This document shows positions 21,200 to 37,808 of a DNA stretch of 60,452 bases, piece after piece; within the stretch, counting starts at the first letter, position 1; the number at the start of each line of letters is the position of its first letter. This DNA is from Nitrospirota bacterium. GTDB taxonomy: Bacteria; Nitrospirota; Thermodesulfovibrionia; Thermodesulfovibrionales; SM23-35. The stretch covers positions 105,866-166,317 of the forward strand of contig JACAFF010000022.1 of the NCBI GenBank assembly GCA_013388455.1, given 5' to 3'. Position numbers and translations under genes: made by a program. Below the pieces are notes generated by a model. That model did not search any database. It was not told the DNA's origin and saw only the letters and a list, made by a program, of their open reading frames with translations.

Positions 21200-21248
21200 A
21201 TTCTCAGAGTAAAAATAAATATTTTAAACTATTATAAACTAATTGACT

Positions 21249-21791
21249 ATGAACATTAAAAGCATATCAGGTTATATTTTACTGCTGATAATTTCTATTA
21301 TCGTATATTCATTAAGACCTGCAAATTTTCACTACTTAAATATATTGCCTCTGTTCATGATTCTCTACCCGGTATTTGTCAGGCATAGGATTAAAATTGC
21401 ATTTTCATTAAAGGCTCTTTCCATCGGTCTTTGTGTTTCAGCTCTTATTTTAATCCCCTACTATTTTCTCTTTGGAGAAAGTGAAGGGAAGATTACTCTG
21501 TATGCAATCCTGTTTCAACTTATAGGGATTGCTTTACCTGAAGAATTCTTTTTCAGGGGATTTCTACAGGATTCAATGGGTAAGACCATTAAAGCGGTTA
21601 TTTTCGTAAGTCTACTTTTTTCAATTGCACATCTTCCTAAAGCGATATTCTCTCATGAGTGGATATCACTCCTTAGCTTTTTCCCTTCGCTCGTTATGGG
21701 CTGGCTTTATATGAAAACAAATAATATCCTTCCAGGAACTATTTTCCACTTTCTGGCTAATGTGGTACAAAGCATAGTAACAATTCAGTGA
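21249..21791 (+). CDS. CPBP-family glutamic intramembrane protease (possible CTERM-processing enzyme)
   Basis: Membrane protease of the CPBP/Abi (Rce1-like) superfamily. From the ATG at 21249 it has 180 residues and about six hydrophobic helices. The catalytic motifs are E98-E99-F-F-F-R103, H128 in SIAHLPK, and H167-F-L-A-N171, all intact. It is small for the superfamily. Small solitary members include the enzymes known or proposed to process MYXO-, JDVT- and Synerg-CTERM tails. It converges on a subtilase gene with exactly such a tail, 290 bases away. The link is inference; immunity or prenyl-protein processing are alternative roles of the superfamily. An in-frame TTG at 21243 is a less likely start. 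Confidence 0.85.
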   Translation: MNIKSISGYILLLIISIIVYSLRPANFHYLNILPLFMILYPVFVRHRIKIAFSLKALSIGLCVSALILIPYYFLFGESEGKITLYAILFQLIGIALPEEFFFRGFLQDSMGKTIKAVIFVSLLFSIAHLPKAIFSHEWISLLSFFPSLVMGWLYMKTNNILPGTIFHFLANVVQSIVTIQ

Positions 21792-22064: not shown

Positions 22065-22097
22065 AGTATATTCTTCGCAAGCTAAAGTTTGCGGCTA
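22065..22097. repeat. 33-base dispersed repeat overlapping the subtilase stop codon
   Basis: The reverse complement matches bases 35752-35784 at 29 of 33 positions. The core CGCAAGCTAAAGTTTGCG is itself a near palindrome. This copy supplies the last five codons (Cys-Ser-Arg-Lys-Leu) and the TAG stop of the subtilase gene ending at 22082. Confidence 0.75.
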
Positions 22098-24439
22098 CAT
22101 TTCCGTCTATCTCTTCTGAACCTTATGATTATCCATACAGCTACCAATGGCATGAAGAGGAACAATGTATCTGCAATGGCGGTCTGATAGTTTTGAACCA
22201 TGCCGACAGAACAACCACCGCCTCTGCCTCCATCGTCATTATCTGTAGTTGATTGAAAAGTTGTAGCGATTGCTTCTTCAGAGGGTAAAGATTCTCCTCC
22301 ATTATTGTATGCTTTTATACGATAGAAATAAGTTGTTCCTGATGAAAGCCCACTGTCTGAATATGCAGTAATATTTGCTCCCACTGTTGCGATTACGTTA
22401 TATGTTCCGCCTGAGCCTTTTTTACGCTCTATCCTGAAGCCTGATTCATTCAAAGAATTATCTGTCCATGCAAGGTCTATCTGACTGCCTGAAAATGGCG
22501 TTGCTATGAGGCCTGATGGAGCTGGCGGTATAATATAACCCATTGCATTGGAAGCATTCAGTCTACCGCCGGTCAATGTTATTCCGGCAAGACTTGAGAC
22601 AGGGTCAACGCTTTTCAAAATGATATCTTTTATCTCTTTAAAGGATAACGATGGATTCACCGAGAGTATTAGCCCTGCAACACCTGAAACATATGGGGCT
22701 GCCATTGATGTGCCATCCCATCCGTGCGATTCATATGTATAATTACTTATGGATATTGATTCTCTTTCAATGAGAACTTCATCAATAAAAACCCCATTGG
22801 CACTGCCTAATGGACTGGATTCTAATCCAAATCCAAAATAAAAGCTATCGAGAATATCCACAATAGATGTAATAGCATCTGTAGAATATAGAATAAATTT
22901 CCCAAATGTATATCCATTTATACTGTCAAACCACTCCCAGTCTGTTCCGTCCAGCGAAAAATTGACATTGAGATAATCAAAAGTCAGGGGATTCACAAAA
23001 CCCTTCCATTTGAATGACAGGGTATATAGATTATTCTTAACGGATGGGATTGCTGTCATATAGCCTGCCCAGGAGTTCGTATTCGGAAGATAAAACCCGC
23101 CAGGACTATCTTCAAGACTATTAGTTCCATTCACTCCAGTCTGTTCAGTAACTGCCCAGCTAGAATTTATTCCACCGCGTGCCCAACCCAGCAAAGGCAG
23201 TTCTCCTGAATCACTATCAAAATTCTCACTGTAAACTGCAACAGGCAGACCATAAACAAATTGGGGGATGGTGCTGTATATGCTTACTCCCGGAGCCCCC
23301 AGATCAACCGATTTTGCGCCATAGTTAGAAAAAGAGGCGATATTATCCCTGTCATCTGTTGCAGCAACTGAAATGATATTCGGGAGATTATAGCTTGCAG
23401 GATAGGTTGGTTCAATGTCATTATTATTTGCCTCATTCCCGGCTGCCGCTACAAATAGCACCCCTTTTCCCCTGGCATAATCTATAGCATCATAAAGCGC
23501 ATTTGAATATTCATAACCTGCCCAGCTTGCATTTATGATGCGTGCTCCGTTGTCAGTAGCATAAACAATTGCATCTGCTGCATCCAAAGTATCACCGGTG
23601 CCACTCACTCCCAGGAAACGGATCGGCATAATCTTTACTGTCCATATTACTCCTGTGCTTCCAAGGCCATTATCCCCAGATGCCCCTATAATTCCAGCAA
23701 CATGTGTCCCGTGTGAGTCTAAGTCAAGTGGATAACCGTCATTATCAATAAAATCCCATCCATAAATGTCATCAACATATCCATTACTGTCATCATCAAC
23801 ACCTGTTTTCCCACTATGCTCTGCTGTATTTGTCCAAATATTTCCTGTAAGATCAGGATGATTATAAGCAACACCTGAATCAATAACGGCTATAATAATA
23901 TCTCTCGAACCATTTGTTACGTTCCATGCCTCTACAGCATCGATATCAGCATCTAACACTCCGCCGGTCTGCCCTGTATTGTTTAATCCCCAGATAAGTG
24001 GAAAACCTGGATCATTCGGTAAGGCAGTCGTTTTTATGATATAATTCGGCTCTGCATATTCAACATCAGTATCAACTCGATATTGGCTTATAAGAGCTTC
24101 AACAGTCATATTATCAGGGACCTTTAATTTATGAACACCTATTTTTTTTATCTCTCTTAATCGTGTAACTCCCGATGACTTAAGAAGTGTAGATATTTTT
24201 GCTGCACCTGCTGATTCCCTGAATTTCACGATTATTTCGCCCGGAACATAACCGGTCTTTATTTCAGGGTTGACTGTATAGCCCTGTCGATTAACCTTTT
24301 TAACTTCTGCCCCACCATCTGAGTTAACCGCTATGTTCAATTGCTCTTCTCCACTACATGAAATAAGATTCAGTGTTAAAACTAAAAATATTATGTACCT
24401 GACCATCTTTCCCACAATATATTCAGCAATAGAAATCAT
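22082..24439 (-). CDS. Subtilisin-like serine protease with lipobox, propeptide, inserted domain, Fn3 and CTERM-like tail
   Basis: S8 family endopeptidase, 785 residues. In order: signal peptide with lipobox LIS-C28; propeptide-like domain (about 62-135) containing PGEIIVKF and VEYAEPNYI; catalytic domain with Asp187 (AVIDSG), His243 (SHGTHVAG) and Ser578 (GTSMAAP). An extra domain of about 160 residues (403-566), resembling a beta-sandwich carbohydrate- or protein-binding module, interrupts the catalytic fold just before Ser. A fibronectin type III domain follows (about 639-728), then an acidic Gly-rich linker, GGGC743SVG, a membrane helix (about 756-773) and an Arg-rich end. The ATG overlaps the gspN stop (ATGA), making it the last gene of the type II secretion operon. 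An internal ATG at 24406 is an alternative start. The last five residues come from a dispersed repeat. Confidence 0.93.
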   Translation of the reverse strand: MISIAEYIVGKMVRYIIFLVLTLNLISCSGEEQLNIAVNSDGGAEVKKVNRQGYTVNPEIKTGYVPGEIIVKFRESAGAAKISTLLKSSGVTRLREIKKIGVHKLKVPDNMTVEALISQYRVDTDVEYAEPNYIIKTTALPNDPGFPLIWGLNNTGQTGGVLDADIDAVEAWNVTNGSRDIIIAVIDSGVAYNHPDLTGNIWTNTAEHSGKTGVDDDSNGYVDDIYGWDFIDNDGYPLDLDSHGTHVAGIIGASGDNGLGSTGVIWTVKIMPIRFLGVSGTGDTLDAADAIVYATDNGARIINASWAGYEYSNALYDAIDYARGKGVLFVAAAGNEANNNDIEPTYPASYNLPNIISVAATDDRDNIASFSNYGAKSVDLGAPGVSIYSTIPQFVYGLPVAVYSENFDSDSGELPLLGWARGGINSSWAVTEQTGVNGTNSLEDSPGGFYLPNTNSWAGYMTAIPSVKNNLYTLSFKWKGFVNPLTFDYLNVNFSLDGTDWEWFDSINGYTFGKFILYSTDAITSIVDILDSFYFGFGLESSPLGSANGVFIDEVLIERESISISNYTYESHGWDGTSMAAPYVSGVAGLILSVNPSLSFKEIKDIILKSVDPVSSLAGITLTGGRLNASNAMGYIIPPAPSGLIATPFSGSQIDLAWTDNSLNESGFRIERKKGSGGTYNVIATVGANITAYSDSGLSSGTTYFYRIKAYNNGGESLPSEEAIATTFQSTTDNDDGGRGGGCSVGMVQNYQTAIADTLFLFMPLVAVWIIIRFRRDRRKCSRKL

Positions 24440-25212
24440 AATTTCCCTCTTAATGGAACAACATAATATCCGGGTGAAACTTCATATCTTTTTAATACCT
24501 CTGAGAATAAAGGGTTATCTATAAAAGACTTTCCGGGCATCAATTCAATATTGATATTATAAAAAGTATCTTTGATATCGCCTTTTATCCTTGCATAAAT
24601 ATCAATCCCCTCAAGTGTAACAGAATTAATGAAAATTTCTTTCCCTCTTATATTAAGCGAACCTATAACTTTTTGAAAGTAATTCAGCGGAACAGATATC
24701 CCTGAAAAAATAGCGCTCTCAAGAGCAATATCCTTCGAAAAAAATTCAATAAAACCTGTATTGTCATTCATTACAAATCTACCTGAAATTGATCCATCCC
24801 CTTTTATTCCTGCAATACTAAAAAAGGGTATATTTTTTATTCTTGCATCTCTAAAATCCAGAGATATATGCTTTTTATTTCTGGCAATATCCATTTTTCC
24901 ATTCATATTGCCTCCGCTTACTTGCCCATTAAATGATAGCCTTAAATTCATAAACACAAGTACCCATGGTTGAAGTGAACAGGATATATCATTTAAGTAG
25001 ACCAATTCCTCTTTACGACCGAGCAGTGTCAGTCTATTTATGGTGAAACTATAAAATAATCCCTTTTTTAGACTTTCGACCTCTACTGATAGCTCATTAG
25101 TTGAAATAGATTTCTCTACAAAAGACTTCAGTATATGTTCTGGGAAAGCAAACCAGACACCCCAGACAAAAGAAGGTATAGCGACGAGAAAAATAATTAA
25201 GACTTTTTTCAC
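24436..25212 (-). CDS. gspN: Type II secretion system protein GspN
   Basis: Accessory inner-membrane and periplasmic component of the type II secretion system. It has 258 residues with one N-terminal membrane anchor (about 4-22, VLIIFLVAIPSFVWGVWFAF). The rest is a beta-rich periplasmic domain with repeated short hydrophobic strands, resembling GspN and the AsmA-like fold. Individual motifs are weak; the call rests on the fold pattern and on position after gspM, with four-base overlaps on both sides. GspN is present in only some type II systems. Confidence 0.75.
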   Translation of the reverse strand: MKKVLIIFLVAIPSFVWGVWFAFPEHILKSFVEKSISTNELSVEVESLKKGLFYSFTINRLTLLGRKEELVYLNDISCSLQPWVLVFMNLRLSFNGQVSGGNMNGKMDIARNKKHISLDFRDARIKNIPFFSIAGIKGDGSISGRFVMNDNTGFIEFFSKDIALESAIFSGISVPLNYFQKVIGSLNIRGKEIFINSVTLEGIDIYARIKGDIKDTFYNINIELMPGKSFIDNPLFSEVLKRYEVSPGYYVVPLRGKL

Positions 25213-25715
25213 TGCGATTTGAGAAAAGAAAGAGAAAGGTTGATATTCAGGAGTTCTGGATTTTCAAAAGCTTTTTTTATAGAAACTTTCTTTATCGTTA
25301 GACGCATTGGAACATTTTTGATTTTATAAAATATGTTTACCATTTCATTCATGGTAACTTTTTCTATAGAAACTTCAGCATCTTCGATTATCCCTTCTTT
25401 TGTTTCAATCTTCCCTGTAGATTTAATTGAACCAACTCTGTCCTTGAGCCCAAGCGATAGAAACACATCATCTACTGCCTGAATAATACCTTGAACCTGT
25501 GACAGATTTTTTTTATCTTCAACATAGTCCATTTTCTTCTTAAGTGATAGAAATTCTTCTCTAAGCATTATCATATCTTTTTGTTGACTTTTCAGGGTGT
25601 TTAACTCTTTTTTTGCAGATGAAAGAATGGAAAGTTCATACGCACATAAAAAAATAAACACTAAAATCACTATTATAACTATAAGAAATCTTCTGTTTTT
25701 TAATAAACCCTTCAT
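25209..25715 (-). CDS. gspM: Type II secretion system protein GspM
   Basis: Inner-membrane platform subunit that binds GspL. The 168 residues contain one membrane helix near the N-terminus (about 10-28, FLIVIIVILVFIFLCAYEL), a coiled coil (about 30-65) and a small ferredoxin-like periplasmic domain ending LNLSLSFLKSQ. Sequence conservation in this family is low, so the call depends on topology and on position between gspL and gspN, with four-base overlaps at both ends. Confidence 0.8.
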   Translation of the reverse strand: MKGLLKNRRFLIVIIVILVFIFLCAYELSILSSAKKELNTLKSQQKDMIMLREEFLSLKKKMDYVEDKKNLSQVQGIIQAVDDVFLSLGLKDRVGSIKSTGKIETKEGIIEDAEVSIEKVTMNEMVNIFYKIKNVPMRLTIKKVSIKKAFENPELLNINLSLSFLKSQ

Positions 25716-26773
25716 ACCTTTTCTTTTACAGTTATGGTGAACAACATATTACCGCTGGCTGATGTCCTTGAATCTGAAATGGAGACTTCATCAAAGAACT
25801 CTTCAAGCCTTACCTGCATCTCCTGTATTGCACTTAATGAAGGCGCTTCCCCCTTCAAGATCAGATTCTGCTTATCAATTATAATTTCATTAAATACAAC
25901 ACCCCTTTTTTCAATCTGAGATATCCTGAGAAGAGAATCGAGGGGATCAACCCCGAGAAAGAGTGCTTCTTTGTTTTTTAGTTCTTTCAGATGAGCTTTC
26001 AGCTGATGAGGTGCATTTACGATATTCTTTTCTTCAGGAAATATATCCGTATATGTTTTACGCATAGTATTTTGCAAAAAAGCAACCTCTCTCTTTGTTG
26101 AGATTATTCTGAACAAAAGATCAAAAACTAAAATCAATGCAATAAGCAGGATAAGCACTACACTTATCTTCATAGATTTCTTAATTTTTTCACTATCACG
26201 TGTATATGAGAATTCATCCTTTCTTAAATTTATAGATGGATTAAACATCTCTTCTATAGCCAGAGCTATTCTGCCTTGGTTGTCTGTTATATCCGGTGAA
26301 AAAAGTTTATCCAGACTGAAATCTTTGAGTATTTTTCTTAACTCAAGAGAGGTTATAAAAACAGGGTCTATATTATGTGACTTTAATTGTGCAAGCATCC
26401 CTTCTATCATTTTTTTTTCAGCATAGACAGCAAGCACCTGATATTTACCGCTTGATGAATCAACAACAATATCATCAAATATTACACTATCTATGCCTCC
26501 CAGAATCATTCCATCAAGTTCAAAAGGAAGCACTTCTCTTATCCTTTCTTTATCAGAAAATGGCAGATCAACGATTCTGAAGTTCAGATAGCTAACTGGC
26601 AAACTCAGATAAGCATCTTCAAAATCTATTATTAGATCACTAAAAGAAAAAAGACCTTTTTCAGTAATAGGGTATTTTTTACTTTCCAGTAATTCATACC
26701 TATTGCCTTTCAGCTCGAATACAAGAAATGTAATTTCCTTTTCCCGAACATCAATAAAAAGAGATTTTCCCAT
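25712..26773 (-). CDS. gspL: Type II secretion system protein GspL
   Basis: Inner-membrane subunit that docks the GspE ATPase. It has 353 residues. The cytoplasmic actin-like domain (about 1-195) begins MGKSLFIDVREKEITFLVFE. A membrane helix follows at about 201-222, then a periplasmic coiled coil and a ferredoxin-like domain to the end. The domain order matches GspL and, more distantly, a PilM-PilN fusion. It overlaps gspM by four bases and touches gspK by one. Confidence 0.85.
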   Translation of the reverse strand: MGKSLFIDVREKEITFLVFELKGNRYELLESKKYPITEKGLFSFSDLIIDFEDAYLSLPVSYLNFRIVDLPFSDKERIREVLPFELDGMILGGIDSVIFDDIVVDSSSGKYQVLAVYAEKKMIEGMLAQLKSHNIDPVFITSLELRKILKDFSLDKLFSPDITDNQGRIALAIEEMFNPSINLRKDEFSYTRDSEKIKKSMKISVVLILLIALILVFDLLFRIISTKREVAFLQNTMRKTYTDIFPEEKNIVNAPHQLKAHLKELKNKEALFLGVDPLDSLLRISQIEKRGVVFNEIIIDKQNLILKGEAPSLSAIQEMQVRLEEFFDEVSISDSRTSASGNMLFTITVKEKV

Positions 26774-27660
26774 TAATATTCCTTCCAGAATTTCAGTATA
26801 GTAGAGGAAAGAGGCGATTTATAAACAACTGCTTCTATAATTGTTCTGACCCCATTGGAGAATGCCTGAGCATATATCTTAAAATGGTCTCCCTTTACAC
26901 TGATCTGATTTGCCCCAAAAGTGGTTCCGGCAAAATTGTTGAACTCATTTATATCCCGGAAAGGCATACCTATTCTATACTTGATAATCTTCCCTGCAAG
27001 CTCCTCTGTTATCGAGTCAGAAATACACATCAAAACTGGTTTTTCAGCGCCGTTTACATTAATTATCAAGTTATCCCTGTTTCCATAAACAGTAACATAT
27101 GGCATTAATTTATCATAATCGTCTCTGGTGATTCCATTTATAAGCAGTAATTCGTCTATACTAATAAGATCAGCATTTTTTGCGTTTATTTCTGAATCAC
27201 TTAGTTCAGCAGCACTATCACGGTCTATCCAGTCAACTATTCTGTCTGCAATATTCTCTTTCAAAGACAGAGTTTTTAATAGTCTTTTAAAAGCATCATA
27301 AGCAATCGGATTTTTCATATCTCCTCTGGGATAAACTATAGTATTAATATTAAACTTTGAGTTTTCGTCTTGAATTCTTACTGCGATTACGCCCTGAAAA
27401 TCCTCAAAAGGATTTTCAACAGGCAATTCAATAGCTCCTGGAGTGAAAGATTGTGTATCAACCCATTCTGACAGATATTTTGCCGATACATTTATTCCTG
27501 ATTTTGCCATTAGTGAGAGCCTCTGTGCATCACGCCAATTATAGATATTGCTTGTCGCTATATAGACTCCATAGGAAAACTCCACTACCATAGCGGTGAT
27601 TAGGGCAACCGCAAGGAGTGTTACCACCAATGCAATACCCTGTTGATTTTTAATAAGCAT
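26773..27660 (-). CDS. gspK: Type II secretion minor pseudopilin GspK
   Basis: Tip subunit of the pseudopilus, 295 residues. A short basic leader (MLIKNQQG) is followed by IALVVTLLAVALITAMVVEF. The residue at +5 is hydrophobic rather than Glu, as is characteristic for GspK. The large soluble domain has helix-hairpin-helix-like segments such as DELLLINGITRDDYDKLMPYVTV and INEFNNFAG, typical of the family. It lies between gspJ and gspL. Confidence 0.92.
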   Translation of the reverse strand: MLIKNQQGIALVVTLLAVALITAMVVEFSYGVYIATSNIYNWRDAQRLSLMAKSGINVSAKYLSEWVDTQSFTPGAIELPVENPFEDFQGVIAVRIQDENSKFNINTIVYPRGDMKNPIAYDAFKRLLKTLSLKENIADRIVDWIDRDSAAELSDSEINAKNADLISIDELLLINGITRDDYDKLMPYVTVYGNRDNLIINVNGAEKPVLMCISDSITEELAGKIIKYRIGMPFRDINEFNNFAGTTFGANQISVKGDHFKIYAQAFSNGVRTIIEAVVYKSPLSSTILKFWKEY

Positions 27661-27661
27661 A

Positions 27662-28438
27662 TCAGAGGGTTCTTCCTATTTTTGGTTTTGAAATTTCAAA
27701 GATATCCAGTGTATTGTCTCTAATCTTTGAAGAAAGTCTAATCCTGATTTCCTCAGGAATATTTCGTGCGATCTCTGTGTCCCATGTCTTAACCCATTGC
27801 CCCTTATATCTAACTTCTACGCTGAAGGATTCAAGATTTTCGATGATATCAACTGCTTCTACCTTCTCATCATGGTATGGTGATTCGATTTTCTTCATAA
27901 GATTAAGTTTATTGTCTTTCTCTTCCACAAAGTATGAAATCCTTGATAAACCTGATTTTAGTGGTGTAAATGTTGTAAATGTAATCTCTGTTGTTTGCTT
28001 CCCATACAGGTCTCGATCCTGAATTTTCAGAAGTGTTTTTTCATCAGCTTCTGACCAGAATACTGAATCCAGTTCACGCCTGAAGATATCAATCGCCCTC
28101 CGCATTTCCTGCATCTTCACCATTGATTCATCAAGTCCATTAAGTGCTTTTTCTGTTAGAAAAAAAGTGCTGTAAACCGCTACAAGAACAATGGACAGGA
28201 TTGCTGAAGCGATAAGGATTTCAATAAGGGTAAAACCACAATTTTTTCTTCTCCTTCGTACCCCATCTTTAATTAAATTCCAAAGGCAGCTATAAAAATT
28301 GTCACTGCGAGTGTAAAGAAGCAATCTCGTCTTTTCATGGGAGATTACCACGCACCTCAAAAGTATTCGTGGTGCTCGCAATGACATGAGTTTCAAACGT
28401 TCAGGATACTTATGGCTGGAGTTGGGATATAAATTCAT
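27662..28438 (-). CDS. gspJ: Type II secretion minor pseudopilin GspJ with abnormal N-terminal extension
   Basis: Minor pseudopilin. The prepilin cleavage motif is KNCG/FTLIEILIASAILS, with Glu at +5, followed by the membrane helix and a beta-rich head; that part has about 190 residues, as in homologs. The ATG at 28438 puts about 68 residues before the cleavage site instead of 5-30. No ATG, GTG or TTG lies in frame between the dispersed repeat (28301-28385) and the motif, although AAGGAGA occurs just before it. Either the long leader is used, a start inside the repeat is used, or the native start was lost on repeat insertion. The reading begins within the end of gspI. Confidence 0.82.
   Translation of the reverse strand: MNLYPNSSHKYPERLKLMSLRAPRILLRCVVISHEKTRLLLYTRSDNFYSCLWNLIKDGVRRRRKNCGFTLIEILIASAILSIVLVAVYSTFFLTEKALNGLDESMVKMQEMRRAIDIFRRELDSVFWSEADEKTLLKIQDRDLYGKQTTEITFTTFTPLKSGLSRISYFVEEKDNKLNLMKKIESPYHDEKVEAVDIIENLESFSVEVRYKGQWVKTWDTEIARNIPEEIRIRLSSKIRDNTLDIFEISKPKIGRTL
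28301..28385. repeat. Dispersed palindromic repeat (GTCATTGCGAG family) inside the gspJ reading frame
   Basis: Starts GTCACTGCGAGTGT and ends GCTCGCAATGAC, with AGCAATCTCGTCTTTTCATG inside. Bases 28311-28350 are nearly identical to the 40137-40211 copy. It lies in the 5' part of gspJ and is read through in frame. Confidence 0.8.
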
Positions 28439-28820
28439 TCAATTTCACCTCTTCATCTCCTGCTTTAACTGAAACAATAACCTCTGATATGCCTGCATAA
28501 GGTGATTCTTTAACTTTAGTTTCGTAAGAGTAAGAACTAAAGGGGTCTTCAAAATTACCACTTGTATCAGCAGGATTTTTCTCAATCTCAAGCATCTTGT
28601 TCTTTGCAAGCAACGTTGAAATAGTTATTTTTTCATGCCTTTCTAAAATACTAAGCTGATAATTTAATGTATATATAAGGGTAACAAGTAAACCACCAAC
28701 AACAGCAAGTGCGATCAGAACCTCAAGGAGTGTAAAGCCACCTGTTCTAAAAAGGCGGGAATTAAAAATTAACAATTTAAAATTTAAAATTCTCAAATTC
28801 CCGAACCCTGGAGGTTTCAT
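28410..28820 (-). CDS. gspI: Type II secretion minor pseudopilin GspI
   Basis: Minor pseudopilin, 136 residues. The cleavage site RTGG/FTLLEVLIALAVVGG has Glu at +5. The small soluble domain ends with VSVKAGDEEVKLNEF. The leader is about 27 residues, longer than usual, and contains NLRILNFKLLIFNSRL, encoded by an AATTTAAAATTT-type repeat (about 28759-28799). The ATG overlaps the gspH stop (ATGA). Confidence 0.9.
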   Translation of the reverse strand: MKPPGFGNLRILNFKLLIFNSRLFRTGGFTLLEVLIALAVVGGLLVTLIYTLNYQLSILERHEKITISTLLAKNKMLEIEKNPADTSGNFEDPFSSYSYETKVKESPYAGISEVIVSVKAGDEEVKLNEFISQLQP

Positions 28821-29281
28821 TTTGAATTTTGAATTATCTTTACTCTTCCACTCATATGATTAAGCGTTACATCCATAAATTCATTTTCTTTATTCAGGTG
28901 TACGTTCAGGTTTTCATTGATTCCAAGAGGTTCAAAGAAGAATATCAACTCTCCAGTAGAAACCAGTCCTCTTGACTGAGTGGTTACTCCGATAACATTG
29001 TTAAATTTCTTGCGCTTCTCGCCCTCGGGACTGCTGAAAGACACAGTATTTTCATTAAAATTGAATTTAATCAAAAAAGTCTCTTTTCTCGAGACCGCAC
29101 TATCATATAAATACCTGAGTAATGAGGCGATTTCTCTTGCTTCTGATTTAAGTTTATTATCTCCAATACCTATAAAAGAAGGCATTATTACAGCCATTAC
29201 AATAGAAAGGATAAAAATAACAACAATAAGCTCAAGGAAAGTAAAACCTTTACTACATATCCCAACTCTTAATATCCTCAT
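28817..29281 (-). CDS. gspH: Type II secretion minor pseudopilin GspH
   Basis: Minor pseudopilin, 154 residues from the ATG at 29279-29281, which is preceded by GGGGAAGG at a good distance; an in-frame ATG 12 codons upstream lies deeper in gspG. The cleavage motif is CSKG/FTFLELIVVIFILSIVMA, with Glu at +5. The head is beta-rich and reads EARE near its start as in GspH. It overlaps the end of gspG by 29 bases in another frame. Confidence 0.88.
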   Translation of the reverse strand: MRILRVGICSKGFTFLELIVVIFILSIVMAVIMPSFIGIGDNKLKSEAREIASLLRYLYDSAVSRKETFLIKFNFNENTVSFSSPEGEKRKKFNNVIGVTTQSRGLVSTGELIFFFEPLGINENLNVHLNKENEFMDVTLNHMSGRVKIIQNSK

Positions 29282-29681
29282 TCTTACCTTCCCCACCTTC
29301 CTTTCCGTCTGCTCCATAACTCATGATATCAAAATCGCCATAGATACCGGGAGATATGTAAACATAAGGGTTACCCCACGGATCAAGAGGTATCTTCTTC
29401 TGCTCAAGATAACCACCTTCCCTGTATTTAGGTGGTATTTGTCCTGATAATGGTTTCTCAACAAGTGCTTGTAGTCCTTGTTCTGTTGAAGGATAGAATC
29501 CATTGTCAAGCTTAAACAGCTTCAATGCTGTTTCGAAATTTTTTATCTGGACTTTTGCCTCAGCAATACGTGCATCATCAGTCCTTCCAATAATCCTTGG
29601 AGCCACAATCGCTGCAAGGATGCTAAGAATAAAAACAACGACAATGACTTCAAGCAAAGTAAACCCTCTATTATTACTCAT
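29253..29681 (-). CDS. gspG: Type II secretion major pseudopilin GspG
   Basis: Main subunit of the pseudopilus piston. It has 142 residues with a very short leader, MSNNRG/FTLLEVIVVVFILSILAA, and Glu at +5. The signature region GFYPSTEQGLQALVEKP and the calcium-loop end DPWGNPYVY followed by DIMSYGADG identify GspG clearly. GGAGGAAG precedes the ATG. It lies 35 bases after gspF and overlaps gspH. Confidence 0.97.
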   Translation of the reverse strand: MSNNRGFTLLEVIVVVFILSILAAIVAPRIIGRTDDARIAEAKVQIKNFETALKLFKLDNGFYPSTEQGLQALVEKPLSGQIPPKYREGGYLEQKKIPLDPWGNPYVYISPGIYGDFDIMSYGADGKEGGEGKNEDIKSWDM

Positions 29682-29716: not shown

Positions 29717-30892
29717 TTACTTTACCAGTTGATTCAACTGGAATATTGGCAATAACACAGCCAGCACAATAAAACCGACAATCAGCCCCATCAGGAGAAT
29801 CATCCCCGGCTCAAGCAAAGATAGTGCTTTTTGCACCCTCCTTGAAAATTCTTCCTCGTATGAATCTGCTGCCTTTCCAAGAACATCAATGAGTTTTCCA
29901 CTCCTTTCACCTGTTGAAATAAGTTGCAAAAGAACTGGGGGGAAACCTTCAAGAGAGGTAGAAAGTTTTGCACCCTCTGCAACTTTTTCACCTGCCCTGA
30001 TAACTTTAATCTCGAGATCTTTGTTACCAATCGAACGTGCTGATAATTCAAGAGCTCTCAGCACAGGAAGGCCACCTTCAAGTAAAAAACCAAGTGTCCT
30101 TGTGAAACGTCCGAAATATAGACTTTGAAGTATACCTCCAGGTAATTTAAAAAGAAATCTGTCAATAAGAAGTCTGTTCTTCTCTTTTAACTTTTTGATG
30201 CTATATATAATTCCTATAAGAATCCCGATTAAAAACCACCAGTAATTCTGAAAAATTTCACTCACTGCAATAAGAATAACAGTTATAAACGGAAGGGCAT
30301 TCTGTGTATCATTAAAAATTCTTGTTATTTTTGGTATAACAAACGTGAATAGAAAAGAGAGCACTATAAAACCGATACAGATCATGAATAGTGGATAGAT
30401 CATTGATGTTCGCACCTTTGATTTGAGGCTACTCTGGGATTCCAGAAAATCTGAAAGACGACTGAGAACAGAATCAAGATTTCCACTCGATTCACCGGCG
30501 GAGACCATATTAATATAGAATGCAGGAAAAATTTTTGGATATTCCTCAAGAGCCTTTGAAAAAGCTGAACCTGCTGAAACCCTTTCTTTTATATCAACGA
30601 TCATATTCTTCCAGAAACCTTTATATTCCTCTGATAGTGAATGTAATGCTTCCATTAATGTTACTCCGGCAGCAAGGAGGATGGATAATTGCCTGGTAAA
30701 TGATGGAAGAACAGCTGCAGTTGAAGGACTGAATATCCTGAATCTTTTTTTATAGAGTGCTGTTTGAACATCCTTTGGATAAAGGCCCCCTTCCTTAAGT
30801 CTCAGGACAGCATCTTTCTGACTGTTTGCCTCTATTGTTCCTTCAACTTCAGAGCCATCGGGTTTATATCCTCTATATTGAAATATCGGCAT
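29717..30892 (-). CDS. gspF: Type II secretion inner-membrane platform protein GspF
   Basis: Polytopic platform protein around which the pseudopilus assembles. The 391 residues start MPIFQYRGYKPDGSEVEGTIEA and contain the two repeated cytoplasmic helical domains (signature LARQLxxLLxAG-like FTRQLSILLAAGVTLMEAL at about 65-83 and FTRTLGFLLEGGLPVLRAL further on) and three membrane segments. It overlaps the end of gspE by 20 bases. Confidence 0.95.
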   Translation of the reverse strand: MPIFQYRGYKPDGSEVEGTIEANSQKDAVLRLKEGGLYPKDVQTALYKKRFRIFSPSTAAVLPSFTRQLSILLAAGVTLMEALHSLSEEYKGFWKNMIVDIKERVSAGSAFSKALEEYPKIFPAFYINMVSAGESSGNLDSVLSRLSDFLESQSSLKSKVRTSMIYPLFMICIGFIVLSFLFTFVIPKITRIFNDTQNALPFITVILIAVSEIFQNYWWFLIGILIGIIYSIKKLKEKNRLLIDRFLFKLPGGILQSLYFGRFTRTLGFLLEGGLPVLRALELSARSIGNKDLEIKVIRAGEKVAEGAKLSTSLEGFPPVLLQLISTGERSGKLIDVLGKAADSYEEEFSRRVQKALSLLEPGMILLMGLIVGFIVLAVLLPIFQLNQLVK

Positions 30893-32447
30893 GGTCTTTC
30901 TGGGTTACTCTCAAAACCTCTTCAATGGTTGTAATGCCCTGAAGAACCTTTTCAAGCCCATCCTGTCTGAGTGTTTTCATCCCTCTGGATATTGCATGAT
31001 TTTTTATCCTCTGTGAATCAACTCGCTCTGTAATCATAGAGCGAATATCGTTGTCTATAACAAGAAGCTCGAAGATACCTGTTCTGCCGAGATATCCTTT
31101 ACCTTTACATTTTTCACATCCTGCACCTCGATAAAGAAACAACGGAGCACGCTCCACCTTCTCCTCTTGCAACAAGGGGGAAGGAAAAGTAGAGGGTAGC
31201 ATATTGATAAAATATGACTTCTCTGTATCAGATGCTTCATATGTTATTTTACAGTTATGACATATTGTTCTTGCAAGCCGTTGTGCAAGAACAACTGTAA
31301 GTGATGATGCAACAAGAAAAGGTTCTATGCCCATGTCAATAAGCCTCACAATGGCGCTGGGTGCATCGTTGGTATGCAGGGTGCTTAAAACAAGATGCCC
31401 TGTTAGAGATGCTTGCATTGCTATCTCAGCAGTCTCAAGGTCTCTTATTTCACCTACCATGATTATATCAGGATCCTGTCTAAGAATTGATCTCAATCCA
31501 GATGCAAATGTTAATCCTATCTTCGGATTTACCTGAATCTGTCCGATACCTTTCAATTGATATTCTATTGGGTCTTCCACTGTAATGATGTTCTTCTCTT
31601 CAGTGTGAATCCTGTTGAGTGCAGCATACAAAGTGGTTGTTTTTCCACTACCTGTTGGGCCAGTTACCAGAATAATCCCATCAGGCCTCCTTAAATGCTC
31701 TTCAAGTGTCCTTTCATCATCTTTACTAAAACCGACCTCCCATAACCCAAGAATACCCTGTTTTCGATCAAGTAGTCTCAGAACTGCCCGTTCCCCATGA
31801 GAAGTAGGGATTACTGATACTCTTATATCAATATCTTTTCCGCCAAGGAGTAATCTTATTCTGCCATCCTGTGGAAGTCTTTTTTCAGCAATATCAAGAT
31901 TGGACATAATCTTGATCCTGCTTATTAATGCATCCTGAATAATTTTTGGTGGACTTAAAACTCTATTTAAAACACCGTCTATTCGAAATCTGACATCAAG
32001 TTCTCTTTCATATGGTTCGATATGAATGTCACTTGCCCGCTCTTTTACTGCCTGAAGAAGCAAAGCATTCAGAAGTCTTATAATTGGTGCTTCTTCAGTA
32101 AGCTCAATCAGGTCTCTCGGAGCTTCAAACTCAGTTGCTACAGATTGAAGATCTTCTCCAGAAATGGTTCCCATAACTTCTTGTGCAGACCCCAACTGTC
32201 CGTAAAATCTATTAATTGCATCTATAATTACATCTGCTTTAACTCTCACGGGTCTCGGTAAGATACCAAGTGCCTTTGACACCTCTTTTAACGCAAGCAA
32301 CCCCCTATCATCAGCAACAGCCCCGATAAGTTCAGAGTCTTCTATTCTCATTGGAAACATCTGATTGGTCTTTACAAAATTAAGGGGTATATTTCTTAAG
32401 ATGCTGATGTCTACATCTTCATCTTTAATGGTCTCAATTGTTTCCAC
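30873..32447 (-). CDS. gspE: Type II secretion ATPase GspE
   Basis: Hexameric traffic ATPase powering pseudopilus assembly, 524 residues. The N-terminal domain (about 1-130) precedes the catalytic part with Walker A GPTGSGKTT, the Asp box (VEDPIEYQLKGIGQIQVN), Walker B (DPDIIMVGEIRDLET) and the His box (TGHLVLSTLHTND). The zinc knuckle is present as CHNC and CEKC, but the loop between them carries about 20 extra residues (LPSTFPSPLLQEEKVERAP), encoded by a repeat at about 31150-31198. It is followed by gspF with overlap. Confidence 0.96.
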   Translation of the reverse strand: METIETIKDEDVDISILRNIPLNFVKTNQMFPMRIEDSELIGAVADDRGLLALKEVSKALGILPRPVRVKADVIIDAINRFYGQLGSAQEVMGTISGEDLQSVATEFEAPRDLIELTEEAPIIRLLNALLLQAVKERASDIHIEPYERELDVRFRIDGVLNRVLSPPKIIQDALISRIKIMSNLDIAEKRLPQDGRIRLLLGGKDIDIRVSVIPTSHGERAVLRLLDRKQGILGLWEVGFSKDDERTLEEHLRRPDGIILVTGPTGSGKTTTLYAALNRIHTEEKNIITVEDPIEYQLKGIGQIQVNPKIGLTFASGLRSILRQDPDIIMVGEIRDLETAEIAMQASLTGHLVLSTLHTNDAPSAIVRLIDMGIEPFLVASSLTVVLAQRLARTICHNCKITYEASDTEKSYFINMLPSTFPSPLLQEEKVERAPLFLYRGAGCEKCKGKGYLGRTGIFELLVIDNDIRSMITERVDSQRIKNHAISRGMKTLRQDGLEKVLQGITTIEEVLRVTQKDHADISI

Positions 32448-32531: not shown

Positions 32532-34769
32532 TTATTTACCACTTTGAATTTTCCTTATATAATTAGGTTCTGAGTATTCAACTTCATCGTAATGCATAAA
32601 TTTTTCTATTGCATCTCTAACATCCTGCCCCTTTTTCAAACGAATTAGATATAGTCCCTTTAATTTTGATATGGTTATAACAGAAGCTTTTTCTAATGTA
32701 AGTATCTCTTGTATTCTATGCTCTGCGACATCCTCTTTAAATTTTACCAGTAATTCTCCTGGCTTGTATTTATTTTCAGCTCTTGCGAATTCCATATTTT
32801 TTTGCTCTGTTAGATTAGAAAGTTGCTCAGATTCTCTTACAATATGAGGAGTCAGGAATACAAGCAGATTAGTTTTACTTTTTTCTACAGTTTTATTTTT
32901 AAAAAGCCATCCAAGCAAAGGGATATCCCCTAATATAGGAATCTTATTGAGGCTTTCCTCTTCTCGCTCTTCCATAAGACCACCAATAACAACGGTCTGG
33001 TTATCTTTTACTACAACCGTTGTCTTTGTTGAGCGTTTTGTTGTAGTAGGTCCTATATTGATCAGAATCGTCTCTGATTCAGGCTTAACTGCTGATATCT
33101 CCTGATATATGTCCATCTTTACATAATCGCCTTCTGTTATCTGGGGTGTAATCCTGAGCGTAATACCAACATCTTTTCTCTCGATAGAACTCAGAACTAT
33201 ATTGGCTGTTGTTGTGATATCTCGCTCTCTCTCTGAAATGAATGGAATGTTTTCGCCAACAACAATTTCCGCTTCTTTATTATCCGAAGTAAGTATCTGA
33301 GGTGTAGAAAGGACATTGACTGCACCTTTAAATTCATTCAGGCTGAATAAAGCAGCAAAGCCTGGAATCGTGAAAGTGGTTGTGCTTACTGTGCCATCTT
33401 CATTAATAGTTGTCAAAGGAACCTCAAGAAAATTACCCATACCACCTGCTGTTAGTCCTGTAAGTCCAAACAGAATATCCTGCATAGATGTCGCATCAAT
33501 CGTCCCAAAACCGGCAACTGCCACAGGCTCTCCATCTTTCTCAGCAATAATCCGCCATTTTGCACCAAGTTCCTGCAACTTTTCGATCGAGGCCTCTACT
33601 ATCATCGCTTCTACATAGACCTGTTTCCTTTTTCTGTCAAGCTGTTTTATAACCTGCACAAGATTCTGATAATCACCGGGCGAAGCAACTATAACAATAG
33701 AATTTGTTGCTTTGTCTGGTGATAGTATAATTTTGCTTCCTGATTCGAAAGGTGTTTTCACAGTCTGCGCACCAGTTTGAATTGACTTAACCTGTTGAGA
33801 TATTCCAACAAGCATACCTTCAAGCACCTTGCTGAGTTCTGTTGCATCTGCATGTTCGAGGAAATAAACATTAATCTTGCTGGTTGCCTCAGGCAAAGGA
33901 ATGTCAAGCAGAGCGATCATTTTCTTCATAGACTGTTTTTCCTGTTTATCTGCAACAAGCACGACAGCGTTTAATCTTGTATCTGCAAAAACATAGTTTT
34001 TCATCTCATCAACAGAAACTGTGCTTGCAGTTTCACCTGGGCGTGGTGTGCGTAAAGACTGAGGCTGTATCTTGCTGCTTATAGAAAAAGCCTCAGTAAT
34101 AATCTTAACTACATCTTCAGCATTTGCATATTTGAGCAATATCAATTCAGGCTCTTCAACTCCTGGCCTGTCAATTGAGTCAAGTATCTTCAATATTTTT
34201 TCGATATTCGAGACTGAATCAACAATCATAATCATATTACCTGGTCCGAAAGAGGAGATATGTCCATTCTGTGAAATTATGGGCTGTAAAAAACTTACTG
34301 CTTTTGAAGATGATATTGATTGCAATTGTATTAGCCTCGTAATATAAGCATCACTGCCTGGCATGACGTCTTCTTTTACTATTTCAGTGCCTGACTGTTT
34401 TGCCTGTTGGAGTGGCACTATCTTATATACTTTTCCAGATGGCACAACCGTAAATCCTTTTATTTCAAGCACAGACGTGAAAAGATTATATGCATCATCT
34501 ACAGAAAGTTTTGAAGGTGCTATTATCGTCACGCTACCTTTCACATTGTCATCAAACACGAAATTCTTACCAGTAATATCACTGATGAACTTCACAACAA
34601 CAGGTATCTCTACATCAACAAAGTTTACTGTGACCTTTTTGTCTTTTGACTGTTGCTGGGTTTTCGTCTCGGCAAAAGATGAAGGATGAAGTATGAATAA
34701 TGAAAAGAGAATAAAAAGAATTATGAAGAATGAAGAATGAAGGATGAAAACACCTCTCTTTCTATGCAT
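32532..34769 (-). CDS. gspD: Type II secretion outer-membrane secretin GspD with a subtilase-propeptide-like C-terminal domain
   Basis: Outer-membrane channel of the type II system, 745 residues. A signal peptide (about 1-33, ending SSFAE) is followed by N0 (about 43-115), N1-N3 (about 140-400) and the secretin barrel (about 440-640, with VPLLG-like IPILGDIPLLGWLF and VVIGGLMEE). Unusually, about 87 residues follow the barrel (659-745, bases 32535-32795). They read YKPGELLVKFKED near the start and VEYSEPNYIRK at the end, closely matching the propeptide domains of both subtilases in this window. Usual secretins carry an S-domain or stop here. The signal peptide itself is encoded by CATTCTTCATTCTTCAT-type repeats. 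Confidence 0.94.
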   Translation of the reverse strand: MHRKRGVFILHSSFFIILFILFSLFILHPSSFAETKTQQQSKDKKVTVNFVDVEIPVVVKFISDITGKNFVFDDNVKGSVTIIAPSKLSVDDAYNLFTSVLEIKGFTVVPSGKVYKIVPLQQAKQSGTEIVKEDVMPGSDAYITRLIQLQSISSSKAVSFLQPIISQNGHISSFGPGNMIMIVDSVSNIEKILKILDSIDRPGVEEPELILLKYANAEDVVKIITEAFSISSKIQPQSLRTPRPGETASTVSVDEMKNYVFADTRLNAVVLVADKQEKQSMKKMIALLDIPLPEATSKINVYFLEHADATELSKVLEGMLVGISQQVKSIQTGAQTVKTPFESGSKIILSPDKATNSIVIVASPGDYQNLVQVIKQLDRKRKQVYVEAMIVEASIEKLQELGAKWRIIAEKDGEPVAVAGFGTIDATSMQDILFGLTGLTAGGMGNFLEVPLTTINEDGTVSTTTFTIPGFAALFSLNEFKGAVNVLSTPQILTSDNKEAEIVVGENIPFISERERDITTTANIVLSSIERKDVGITLRITPQITEGDYVKMDIYQEISAVKPESETILINIGPTTTKRSTKTTVVVKDNQTVVIGGLMEEREEESLNKIPILGDIPLLGWLFKNKTVEKSKTNLLVFLTPHIVRESEQLSNLTEQKNMEFARAENKYKPGELLVKFKEDVAEHRIQEILTLEKASVITISKLKGLYLIRLKKGQDVRDAIEKFMHYDEVEYSEPNYIRKIQSGK

Positions 34770-34839: not shown

Positions 34840-35703
34840 CTACTGTATCTGATATGTCATTGTCATCTTTGCCCCAGACCTGATTAAATCTACCTGCACT
34901 CTATCCAGCCCTTTCAGAGCTGAAAATGCCTGTAATGCCCTTTCAGGGTTTGATATATCGTATTCATTAATACGTAGTAAAACATCCCCATTCTGAAGTC
35001 CAAGGCTGTGGTAAATACCTCCTGGCTTTACTTCACTCAGGATAAAACCCTCCTCTTTTCCATTAACAACATTTGGTTTTAATCTTGCATCAGTCATCAT
35101 CTTAGAAGGATTTGCAATCATCTGTTGAAGATTTCTCTGGTCTACAATATAGGTTCCTTTTCCTACCTGTTTTGCAAAAAGAGAATTTGGAGGAATTTGT
35201 TTACGCACTTCTCTTATTTTTAAATCTTCAAAATTAACTTCTGTTATTTTTCCATCTTGCCGTATAAGCACCCTGTCGGTTTTTACCATATATAACTCGC
35301 CAAGTCCTGATACATTCTCTCCAGCCTTAAACATCTCCTGTATTCCAGAACTTCTCCTGAAAATTGCATAGCTCAATTTTTTTGGCCCAACAACAGTTCC
35401 GATTAAAACAACATCGCCTTGCTGTATGTTCGCACTCCCAGAAGAAGCAAGAGACCTGATTTCTCCTCCTAAGAAACCAAAAGGATTATTTTTCAGTATC
35501 TTTGAATAATCTGTTAGCTGTAGTTCAGACTGTGAATCTGTCTTATCTGATGATTCCTGTGTATTTATCACTGCCTTATCTCCCCTTGTAAACGAATGGG
35601 AGATGATATCACGTGCAAAAAGAAGTATTACAACAAAGAGCAGGATACTTAAAATAATGTTTATGTAAAAAATGGTTCTATTTGTTAGCACTGCTGATTT
35701 CAA
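34840..35703 (-). CDS. gspC: Type II secretion protein GspC with PDZ-like domain
   Basis: Inner-membrane clamp that links the platform to the secretin and may select substrates. In 287 residues: one membrane helix (about 10-30), the homology region (about 65-160, with the short strands LIGTVVGP and YAIFRRSSG) and a C-terminal PDZ domain (about 215-287, EGFILSEVKPGGIYHSLGLQNGD). The order matches PDZ-type GspC. It is the first gene of the gsp cluster, 281 bases after the other subtilase gene. No strong promoter is evident to me in the gap. Confidence 0.92.
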   Translation of the reverse strand: MKSAVLTNRTIFYINIILSILLFVVILLFARDIISHSFTRGDKAVINTQESSDKTDSQSELQLTDYSKILKNNPFGFLGGEIRSLASSGSANIQQGDVVLIGTVVGPKKLSYAIFRRSSGIQEMFKAGENVSGLGELYMVKTDRVLIRQDGKITEVNFEDLKIREVRKQIPPNSLFAKQVGKGTYIVDQRNLQQMIANPSKMMTDARLKPNVVNGKEEGFILSEVKPGGIYHSLGLQNGDVLLRINEYDISNPERALQAFSALKGLDRVQVDLIRSGAKMTMTYQIQ

Positions 35704-35984: not shown

Positions 35985-37808
35985 TTACTTCCTTCTTCTT
36001 AACAAGAATATGTAAACAACTGGTAGAAGCATTACAGCAAGATTAGCAAGAGCAGTTGGTGTATTTTGACTTCCACCTATAGAGCATCCTCCATTGTCAT
36101 CGTCGTCATCTACAGAACTGGAAGGGGTAGCAACCAGAAACTCATTAGAATAATTGGATTGTGCAGTTAAAGGTGCTGGAGTTCCTGCAGGATTTGGGAG
36201 CAAGCTATATGCGCTTATTCTGTATGCATATGTTGTGCCTGGAGAAACTGTATTATCATTAAAGGATTCGACATTGGCTCCAACCGTCGCTACAGTTGTA
36301 AAAGGTTCAGTGCCTGTGCGTCTCTCTATTGTATATCCATCCTCACCTGTAGCATTATCTTCCCATGAAATTGAAATCTGCCTTGGAGAAGTAGCGTATA
36401 TAGACAAATTTGAAGGAGTAAGCAGTGAGGATATTGCACTGTATGCATTTATTCTACCACCTGTAAAAATCCAGTCAATTAGTGTTGGTTTTACATCAAC
36501 ATATCTGAGGATCATTCCTCGTATCTGGGAGTAGCTTGCGTTCGTATAATAGCTCATGAGAAGGCCTGCAAGTCCTGATACATGCGGAGCAGCCATAGAT
36601 GTTCCTTCCAGAAATTCTTTATCAGACATATCACTATAAAGATTCTGAGGGATGGTGCTCAGTATATATACACCAGGGGCAGCGACATGGACCGTGTTTG
36701 TCCCGTAATTGCTGAAAGGAACCCTTACGTCGTCCTGGTCTGTTGCAGCAACAGATATGATGTTGGGAAGGTAACGACTGTAACTGGCAGGATAGAATGG
36801 AGTGAGGTCATTGTTGTCTCCAATTCCATCTCCGCCGAGCTGACCATTTCCTGCTGCAGCCACAAAGAGCACACCTCTTGTATTTGCTGATGATATTGCT
36901 TCATAAAGACTCCATGAAAAAGCACCATAACCTCCCCAACTGGCATTAATAACCTGTGCACCATTATCTAAAGCGTATTCAATGCCGTCTATTATATCCA
37001 TATCGTTTCCAACACCCATAGAATCAAGAATTTTTACAGGCATCAACCGGACGTTCCACATCACTCCTGCAATCCCTGTTCCATTATTTCCGAGAGCACC
37101 AATAATACCGGCAACATGGGTGCCGTGTTCGTTGTCATCCATAGGATCATTATCACTGTTCACAAAGTCCCATCCCAGACAGTCATCTCTGTATCCATTG
37201 CCATCATTGTCAACATTATTTGTGCAGTTTGGTTCGCCTGGATTTTTCCAGATGTTCAGGATAAGGTCAGAATGGTGGTAATCTATTCCTGTATCAAGCA
37301 CAGCGATTACAACATTATCACTTCCTGTTGATATATCCCATGCCTCTGGAGCATCTATATCGGCATCAGGAGTACCATTGGCATATAAGCCAAGATTAAT
37401 GAGTCCCCACTGGTCTTTAAAATAAGTGTCATTCGGTGATGTCAAAGCAGCGCGTCTGATATAGTTTGGTTCTGCATATTCAACATCTGGATTGGACATA
37501 TATTGCATTATTGCATCCTGAACAGAGACTCCATCCGGCAGTTTTACCTGCTCGAGGTTCGGGACAATATTCACGCTTTTCATTACAGTTGCACCGATAC
37601 TCTTATGGGCTGCACGTGATGAAGATTTGAATTTTACAAGCAATTCGCCCTCTACATATTCAGCATTACTCATCTGTGCAATAATGGAATTAGCAGTGGC
37701 TTTTACACTGCTTGTTGAGCTTGAAGAATCCGAAGAGATGTTCGTAGTTTGATCACTTCCGCATGATATCAGAAAAATTGATAGGAAAAGATATAATAAT
37801 TTTTTCAT
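35985..37808 (-). CDS. Subtilisin-like serine protease with lipobox, propeptide, Fn3 and CTERM-like tail
   Basis: S8 family endopeptidase, 607 residues, paralogous to the gene at 22082. A lipobox signal (LIS-C16) is followed by the propeptide-like domain (about 50-120, with EGELLVKF and VEYAEPNYIRR). The catalytic triad is Asp172 (AVLDTG), His228 (EHGTHVAG) and Ser404 (GTSMAAP), without the extra domain seen in its paralog. A fibronectin type III domain spans about 464-563. The end is an acidic run (DDDDDNGG), GGC575SIGG, a membrane helix (about 587-602) and RRRK. AAAGGAG precedes the ATG. A terminator follows, so it is transcribed separately from gspC. Confidence 0.94.
   Translation of the reverse strand: MKKLLYLFLSIFLISCGSDQTTNISSDSSSSTSSVKATANSIIAQMSNAEYVEGELLVKFKSSSRAAHKSIGATVMKSVNIVPNLEQVKLPDGVSVQDAIMQYMSNPDVEYAEPNYIRRAALTSPNDTYFKDQWGLINLGLYANGTPDADIDAPEAWDISTGSDNVVIAVLDTGIDYHHSDLILNIWKNPGEPNCTNNVDNDGNGYRDDCLGWDFVNSDNDPMDDNEHGTHVAGIIGALGNNGTGIAGVMWNVRLMPVKILDSMGVGNDMDIIDGIEYALDNGAQVINASWGGYGAFSWSLYEAISSANTRGVLFVAAAGNGQLGGDGIGDNNDLTPFYPASYSRYLPNIISVAATDQDDVRVPFSNYGTNTVHVAAPGVYILSTIPQNLYSDMSDKEFLEGTSMAAPHVSGLAGLLMSYYTNASYSQIRGMILRYVDVKPTLIDWIFTGGRINAYSAISSLLTPSNLSIYATSPRQISISWEDNATGEDGYTIERRTGTEPFTTVATVGANVESFNDNTVSPGTTYAYRISAYSLLPNPAGTPAPLTAQSNYSNEFLVATPSSSVDDDDDNGGCSIGGSQNTPTALANLAVMLLPVVYIFLLRRRK

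Follow-up and report, generated by a model that had tools for sequence, protein, structure and literature searches.

The N-terminal prodomains of subtilases (S8 proteases) are represented by the Pfam profile PF22148, by fervidolysin (1r6v) and subtilisin BPN′ (1spb) and by the MEROPS I9-type. In complexes with subtilisin, residues Glu69 and Asp71 of the propeptide act as helix caps, and Glu146 and Asn148 are found at the equivalent places in the stand-alone inhibitor SUB1-ProM (PMC6993865). The same fold acts, or was proposed to act, in trans in several stand-alone inhibitors and chaperones, such as POIA1, the yeast proteinase B inhibitor, SUB1-ProM and Aeromonas ORF2, the last being a separate chaperone with a C-terminal Lys that reaches the active site of the protease (PMC5638518). 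The genes encoding SUB1-ProM and ORF2 are located near an S8 gene.

GspD, the secretin of type II secretion systems (T2SS), has an N0-to-secretin architecture that in PulD, EpsD and the GspD of E. coli is extended at the C-terminus by an S-domain. In solved secretins the S-domain follows the secretin domain and lies on the periplasmic outside; it consists of about 60 residues. S-domains are sites of pilotin binding and influence secretin assembly (PMC6532946, PMC3542185). In the VesB/rhombosortase and MYXO-CTERM/myxosortase systems, T2SS cargo is anchored on the cell surface (PMC6219818, PMC11980579). Here we describe a GspD in which the secretin domain is followed by a domain of the subtilase prodomain type. 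As the initial annotation of this DNA had assumed, no published secretin with a subtilase propeptide was found in the literature searched.

The window analysed here is a stretch of 60,452 nt from a Nitrospirota genome of 2.1 Mb that is 99.4% complete. The genes gspC to gspL follow each other in order on the minus strand: gspC (T2SSC plus PDZ, 34840..35703), gspD (32532..34769), gspE (T2SSE ATPase, 30873..32447), gspF (29717..30892), the pseudopilin genes gspG, H, I, J and K (26773..29681) and gspL (GspL_C, slightly below the Pfam cutoff, 25712..26773). A gspM-like and a gspN-like gene (24436..25715, minus) were assigned by position alone and have no Pfam match. A subtilase of 607 aa is encoded directly upstream of gspC (35985..37808, minus) and another one of 785 aa directly downstream of the gspN-like gene (22082..24439, minus). 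Each begins with a likely lipobox (LISC), followed by a PF22148 prodomain (residues 39–115 and 56–132, respectively), the catalytic domain and an fn3-like (607 aa) or fn3 (785 aa) region. Both end in a tail consisting of GGCS, a transmembrane segment and basic residues that resembles CTERM sorting signals; lipoboxes and sorting tails were recognised by inspection. Adjoining the downstream subtilase is a gene for a CPBP (Rce1-like) intramembrane protease (21243..21791, plus) whose scores with the myxosortase and MrtS models approach the cutoffs without reaching them.

The flanking subtilases thus resemble the cargo of the VesB and MYXO-CTERM systems in that they look exported, surface-anchored and sorting-tailed, with an intramembrane protease nearby, whereas the CPBP protease is below the family cutoffs, the tails were assigned by inspection and no secretin prodomain has been described in those systems. 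By this analogy it is plausible that both subtilases are surface-anchored T2SS cargo, and the CPBP protease is a candidate processor of their C-terminal tails. Together with the GGCS-type tails and lipoboxes, it constitutes a candidate undescribed CTERM sorting pair. In the related genome G012 a CPBP-like gene is present at the same place (L013 1823-2422, plus), while the adjacent subtilase gene is absent. Other secretin genes were also seen. A PilQ-type secretin with AMIN domains is encoded near gsp (window 40280-42481, minus), with pil-like genes upstream, and a second GspD-like secretin of the genome lies outside the window (G000:C22:21567-22667, minus); both are without the prodomain-like tail. 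Several Nitrospirota records (L092, L094, L096, L106, L111) have yet another large secretin gene, approximately 3–4 kb upstream of a subtilase gene.

GspD is encoded in a single open frame of 745 aa comprising a signal peptide, N0, three secretin-N domains, the secretin domain and the C-terminal tail, with no interruption between the secretin part and the tail. Residues 48–654 match the GspD equivalog TIGR02517 over model positions 1–600 (E = 7.6e-163, 543 bits, cutoff 351). They are followed by a match to PF22148 (Fervidolysin_NPro-like) in residues 660–736 (32562..32792, minus; E = 1.1e-12, 48.5 bits, Pfam cutoff 21). Genome-wide there are exactly three PF22148 matches, one in the GspD tail and one in the prodomain of each flanking subtilase, all within the gsp locus. 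A frame error near residue 658 or an assembly artefact was ruled out, as the open frame is intact and the same in-frame fusion recurs in many genomes, including all 16 genomes of the source family that have this GspD. Some details of the initial annotation needed correction. The segment that opens with YKPGELL is present, but it comprises the last 78 residues (668–745, window 32768-32535) and not 87. EPNYIRK occurs as described, but the protein ends in EPNYIRKIQSGK. The equal spacing proposed for the three prodomains, counted between the first Y and the EPNY tyrosine, holds for GspD and the downstream subtilase (70 residues each), whereas the upstream one is close but differs (66).

A model of the tail was built with AlphaFold2 from a 74-row alignment. 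The domain reached a pLDDT >90 over most of its length and adopted the beta-alpha-beta-beta-alpha-beta fold of prodomains. Its best fold matches in the PDB were S8 prodomains, namely those of PC1/3, subtilisin BPN′ and E and Aspergillus alkaline protease as well as POIA1, with fervidolysin further down the list; these S8 prodomain matches had Z values of 8.6–9.3 and an rmsd of 1.9–2.7 over 68–76 residues. Unrelated ferredoxin-like folds such as RRM also scored approximately 7–8, and the best of the Foldseek E-values, which were modest throughout, was 5e-3. Such values are to be expected for a small and widespread fold, so that we rely more on the sequence profile than on the fold score. Comparison of the tail sequence with PDB chains yielded nothing meaningful, unlike the fold search. 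The most diverged tails were still predicted in the same fold. A chance likeness of a short stretch was ruled out by the Pfam match, the fold and the alignment. The view that GspD ends in a domain of the subtilase propeptide type was thus borne out, and according to profile and predicted structure we consider it a genuine S8-prodomain-type domain.

The residues with which propeptides contact subtilases can be located in this domain. In the match to the BPN′ prosegment, model residue 105 pairs with Tyr77 (P1), and by counting back E97 and N99 of the model fall on Glu69 and Asp71. In GspD the helix-capping pair corresponds to E734 and N736 of the EPNY motif (residues 734–737; 32559..32570, minus), and the P1 position to Q742 within the C-terminal peptide IRKIQSGK (32535..32558, minus). 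The motif was found in all 16 tails of the family, with E, P and Y invariant and the third position being N or D. In an alignment of 96 tails, 31 positions have a polar majority residue, and by conservation the cap positions come first (tied) and fourth among them. The cap Glu is present in 73 of the 82 tails scored. In 32 of the 82 the last residue is the fifth one behind the EPNY tyrosine and thus the P1 equivalent; no other length is as common. The surface and the C-terminal end that propeptides use for binding subtilases are largely conserved in the tails. The conserved residues and the P1-like end favour a retained surface that would bind a subtilase in trans.

The GspD tail hence shares with subtilase prodomains the profile, the predicted fold, the E-P-N-Y caps and an end at or near the P1 equivalent, while it differs from them in being located C-terminally of a secretin, not N-terminally of the S8 catalytic domain of the same chain, in not arising from self-cleavage and in forming a clade of its own. 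With the stand-alone inhibitors it shares the cap residues (E and N/D, as in SUB1-ProM) and, in the gsp locus as for SUB1-ProM and ORF2, the vicinity of an S8 gene; it would also share the action in trans and a C-terminus of its own that can enter the active site. Those inhibitors are separate small proteins, whereas the GspD tail is fused in one frame and tethered to an outer-membrane secretin.

Stand-alone proteins of the PF22148 type are also encoded in relatives, in Nitrospira-class genomes and elsewhere, directly upstream of subtilase genes and often overlapping them. The tails and these proteins share Glu47, Tyr70 and Glu92 (model numbering), which S8 prodomains lack. The proteins consist of a leader and a single PF22148-type domain, the adjoining subtilase has its own prodomain, and many of them end about six residues after EPNY. 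Instances are L204 3626-4018 (minus), L205 4401-4817 (minus), L206 4575-5051 (plus), L207 4748-5158 (plus), L208 4620-5063 and 8582-9004 (both plus) and L220 3029-3460 (plus), and further ones occur in L083, L084, L088, L089, L091 and L093. They are possibly a family of bacterial stand-alone subtilase chaperones or inhibitors. Their location beside S8 genes and the residues shared with them likewise favour binding of a subtilase in trans by the GspD tail.

The fusion is not restricted to the source family. Within the order, 84 tails were read from loci, and in other orders of the same class 13 more were read by translation. Named records with the fusion are mostly Nitrospirota MAGs, plus two Syntrophaceae, one record labelled Proteobacteria and one unplaced bacterium. 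Four genomes of the order (G042, G127, G165, G167) have this GspD without the tail, corresponding to three losses on the secretin tree. In the tree of prodomains the tails cluster in one clade separate from S8 prodomains, with moderate support; of its 97 rows, 94 are tails, two are broken tails and one is an S8 sequence. A recent move of the prodomain of a neighbouring subtilase onto GspD is disfavoured by this separation. A single tail clade fits a single old fusion that was mostly vertically inherited. We conclude that the secretin-prodomain fusion is real and ancient; a single early event in the class Thermodesulfovibrionia would have joined the S8-prodomain-type module to the T2SS secretin, where it has persisted.

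By homology, the GspD tail would occupy the place of the S-domain, on the periplasmic outside of the channel. This stands against the location at the exit pore proposed in the initial annotation. In some relatives, the GspD tail is followed by a long linker and a SPOR domain (L212 6726-9185, plus; L215 7437-10343, minus; L216 6973-9630, plus; and, by inspection, L081). SPOR domains bind peptidoglycan, and the matches were over the Pfam cutoff in two instances and under it in one. A SPOR domain behind the tail fits a periplasmic C-terminus near the peptidoglycan. A tail in this place probably does not block the exit pore, but it could meet cargo in the periplasm.

This position raises the main rival to a protease-binding function, in which the prodomain fold was co-opted as a stand-in for the S-domain, packing on neighbouring secretin subunits or binding to a pilotin or to a protein of the envelope; in most species no protease would take part. 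Besides the position itself and the role of S-domains in pilotin binding and assembly (PMC6532946, PMC3542185), the SPOR domain behind the prodomain in L212 and L215 speaks for it. Moreover, a search for pilotins in 20 family genomes gave no PulS/OutS match (PF09691) and no AspS-type match (PF16549) over the cutoff; a pilotin of another kind may be present, and the tail may replace the S-domain structurally. The architecture is that of PulD, EpsD and E. coli GspD with the extra region in the same place, yet instead of a pilotin-binding or assembly element of about 60 residues there is a domain predicted to fold like a protease prodomain, sometimes with SPOR after it. A structural role explains neither the conservation of the cap residues, which is among the highest of all polar sites, nor the many tails that stop at P1, and it does not account for the stand-alone copies adjoining S8 genes. 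The four genomes that manage without the tail after three losses indicate that it is not essential for the secretin. We consider a structural or assembly role possible, though doubtful.

The initial annotation expected the tail to co-occur with subtilases, and this holds in part. S8 genes adjoin gspD in at least three lineages, with differing layouts, so the linkage of S8 and gsp is recurrent, but outside the source family the S8 gene is away from gspD in most lineages. Moreover, in 11 near-complete tail-bearing genomes (G008, G012, G017, G023, G047, G053, G056, G080, G084, G097, G169) no S8 gene was detected at E ≤ 0.01; the subtilase gene is cleanly absent on both gsp flanks in G008 and on the downstream flank in G012. 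A strict dependence of the tail on subtilases is therefore ruled out. In pairs of S8-less genomes the dN/dS of the tail is approximately 0.1–0.3, similar to S8-bearing pairs and indicative of purifying selection. Tails maintained in this way without an S8 gene count against a dedicated subtilase partner, and they agree with the structural role.

We considered whether the integrity of EPNY tracks the presence of S8 genes. The cap Glu is retained in 58 of 60 S8-bearing and 15 of 22 S8-less genomes, a count that omits two genomes in which a fragment of an S8 gene or prodomain at the end of a contig is the sole trace. Simple counts, uncorrected for phylogeny, were significant, with Fisher values of 0.001 and 0.008. 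When mapped on the secretin tree, however, the presence of S8 switches 13 times but the cap Glu only twice, with all Glu losses within family f8, and in 13 independent pairs neither the cap nor the motif was significantly linked to S8. The association was consequently dropped as proof. In f8, all three genomes with an S8 gene approximately 3 kb from gspD retain the cap Glu, and all nine without a nearby S8 gene have another residue there, a pattern that is suggestive but relies on few events.

That some f8 tails have lost the cap Glu and that the motif has decayed in family f9 could also be read as signs of a relic, a decaying fusion that is tolerated and no longer does anything. In most pairs the tail changes at about 1.5 to 3.5 times the rate of the secretin part, and it was lost three times. 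Nevertheless, its dN/dS is mostly 0.06–0.3 across pairs, the predicted fold is kept in the most diverged tails and the tail is retained across a class, which makes a relic highly improbable.

A further alternative is that the tail serves as a substrate adaptor that docks several exported proteins, mainly subtilases where present, and contributes to cargo selection and not to inhibition. Cargo-specific domains of T2SS components exist, since the PDZ domain of GspC is needed for VesB only (PMC12369372). The lipobox, the C-terminal GGCS tail and the nearby CPBP protease let the subtilases look like surface-anchored T2SS cargo, and a tail kept without S8 genes would follow if other cargo were bound too. 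The analysis identified no further cargo whose surface would match, however, and the P1-like end and the cap residues point to an S8-type partner. An adaptor role therefore appears unlikely.

Binding of a subtilase in trans is the best-supported single function of the tail, with the structural or assembly role as its main rival. Given the motif conservation and the predicted fold, we see about an even chance that the tail binds the folded catalytic domain of a subtilase and holds exported subtilases inactive or aids their folding. By homology, the secretin ring would carry approximately 15 tails, which would lie in the periplasm directly below the outer membrane. The beta-sheet of a tail would pack on two surface helices of the protease, the Glu and Asn/Asp of EPNY would cap these helices, and the free C-terminus would sit product-like in the active site, for which the C-terminal Lys of Aeromonas ORF2 is a precedent (PMC5638518). 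Subtilases waiting at the secretin would be kept inactive or helped to finish folding, and export would release them from the tail. Stoichiometry, location, binding, inhibition and hand-over are inferred here. A more far-reaching version, which we regard as rather unlikely, is that the T2SS secretin acts as a trans-acting foldase and inhibitor, with the subtilases swapping or shedding their own prodomain for the tethered ones, and with this exchange serving as the recognition and safe-hold step.

How the T2SS recognises folded cargo is an open question on which the tail could bear, and components of the secretion machine have rarely been invoked to explain how a cell exports active proteases through its periplasm unharmed. 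A prodomain-bearing secretin conserved through a bacterial class provides a defined piece of 78 residues with predicted contact residues. If the partner is not a subtilase, a protease prodomain fold would have been taken over for the assembly of an outer-membrane complex.
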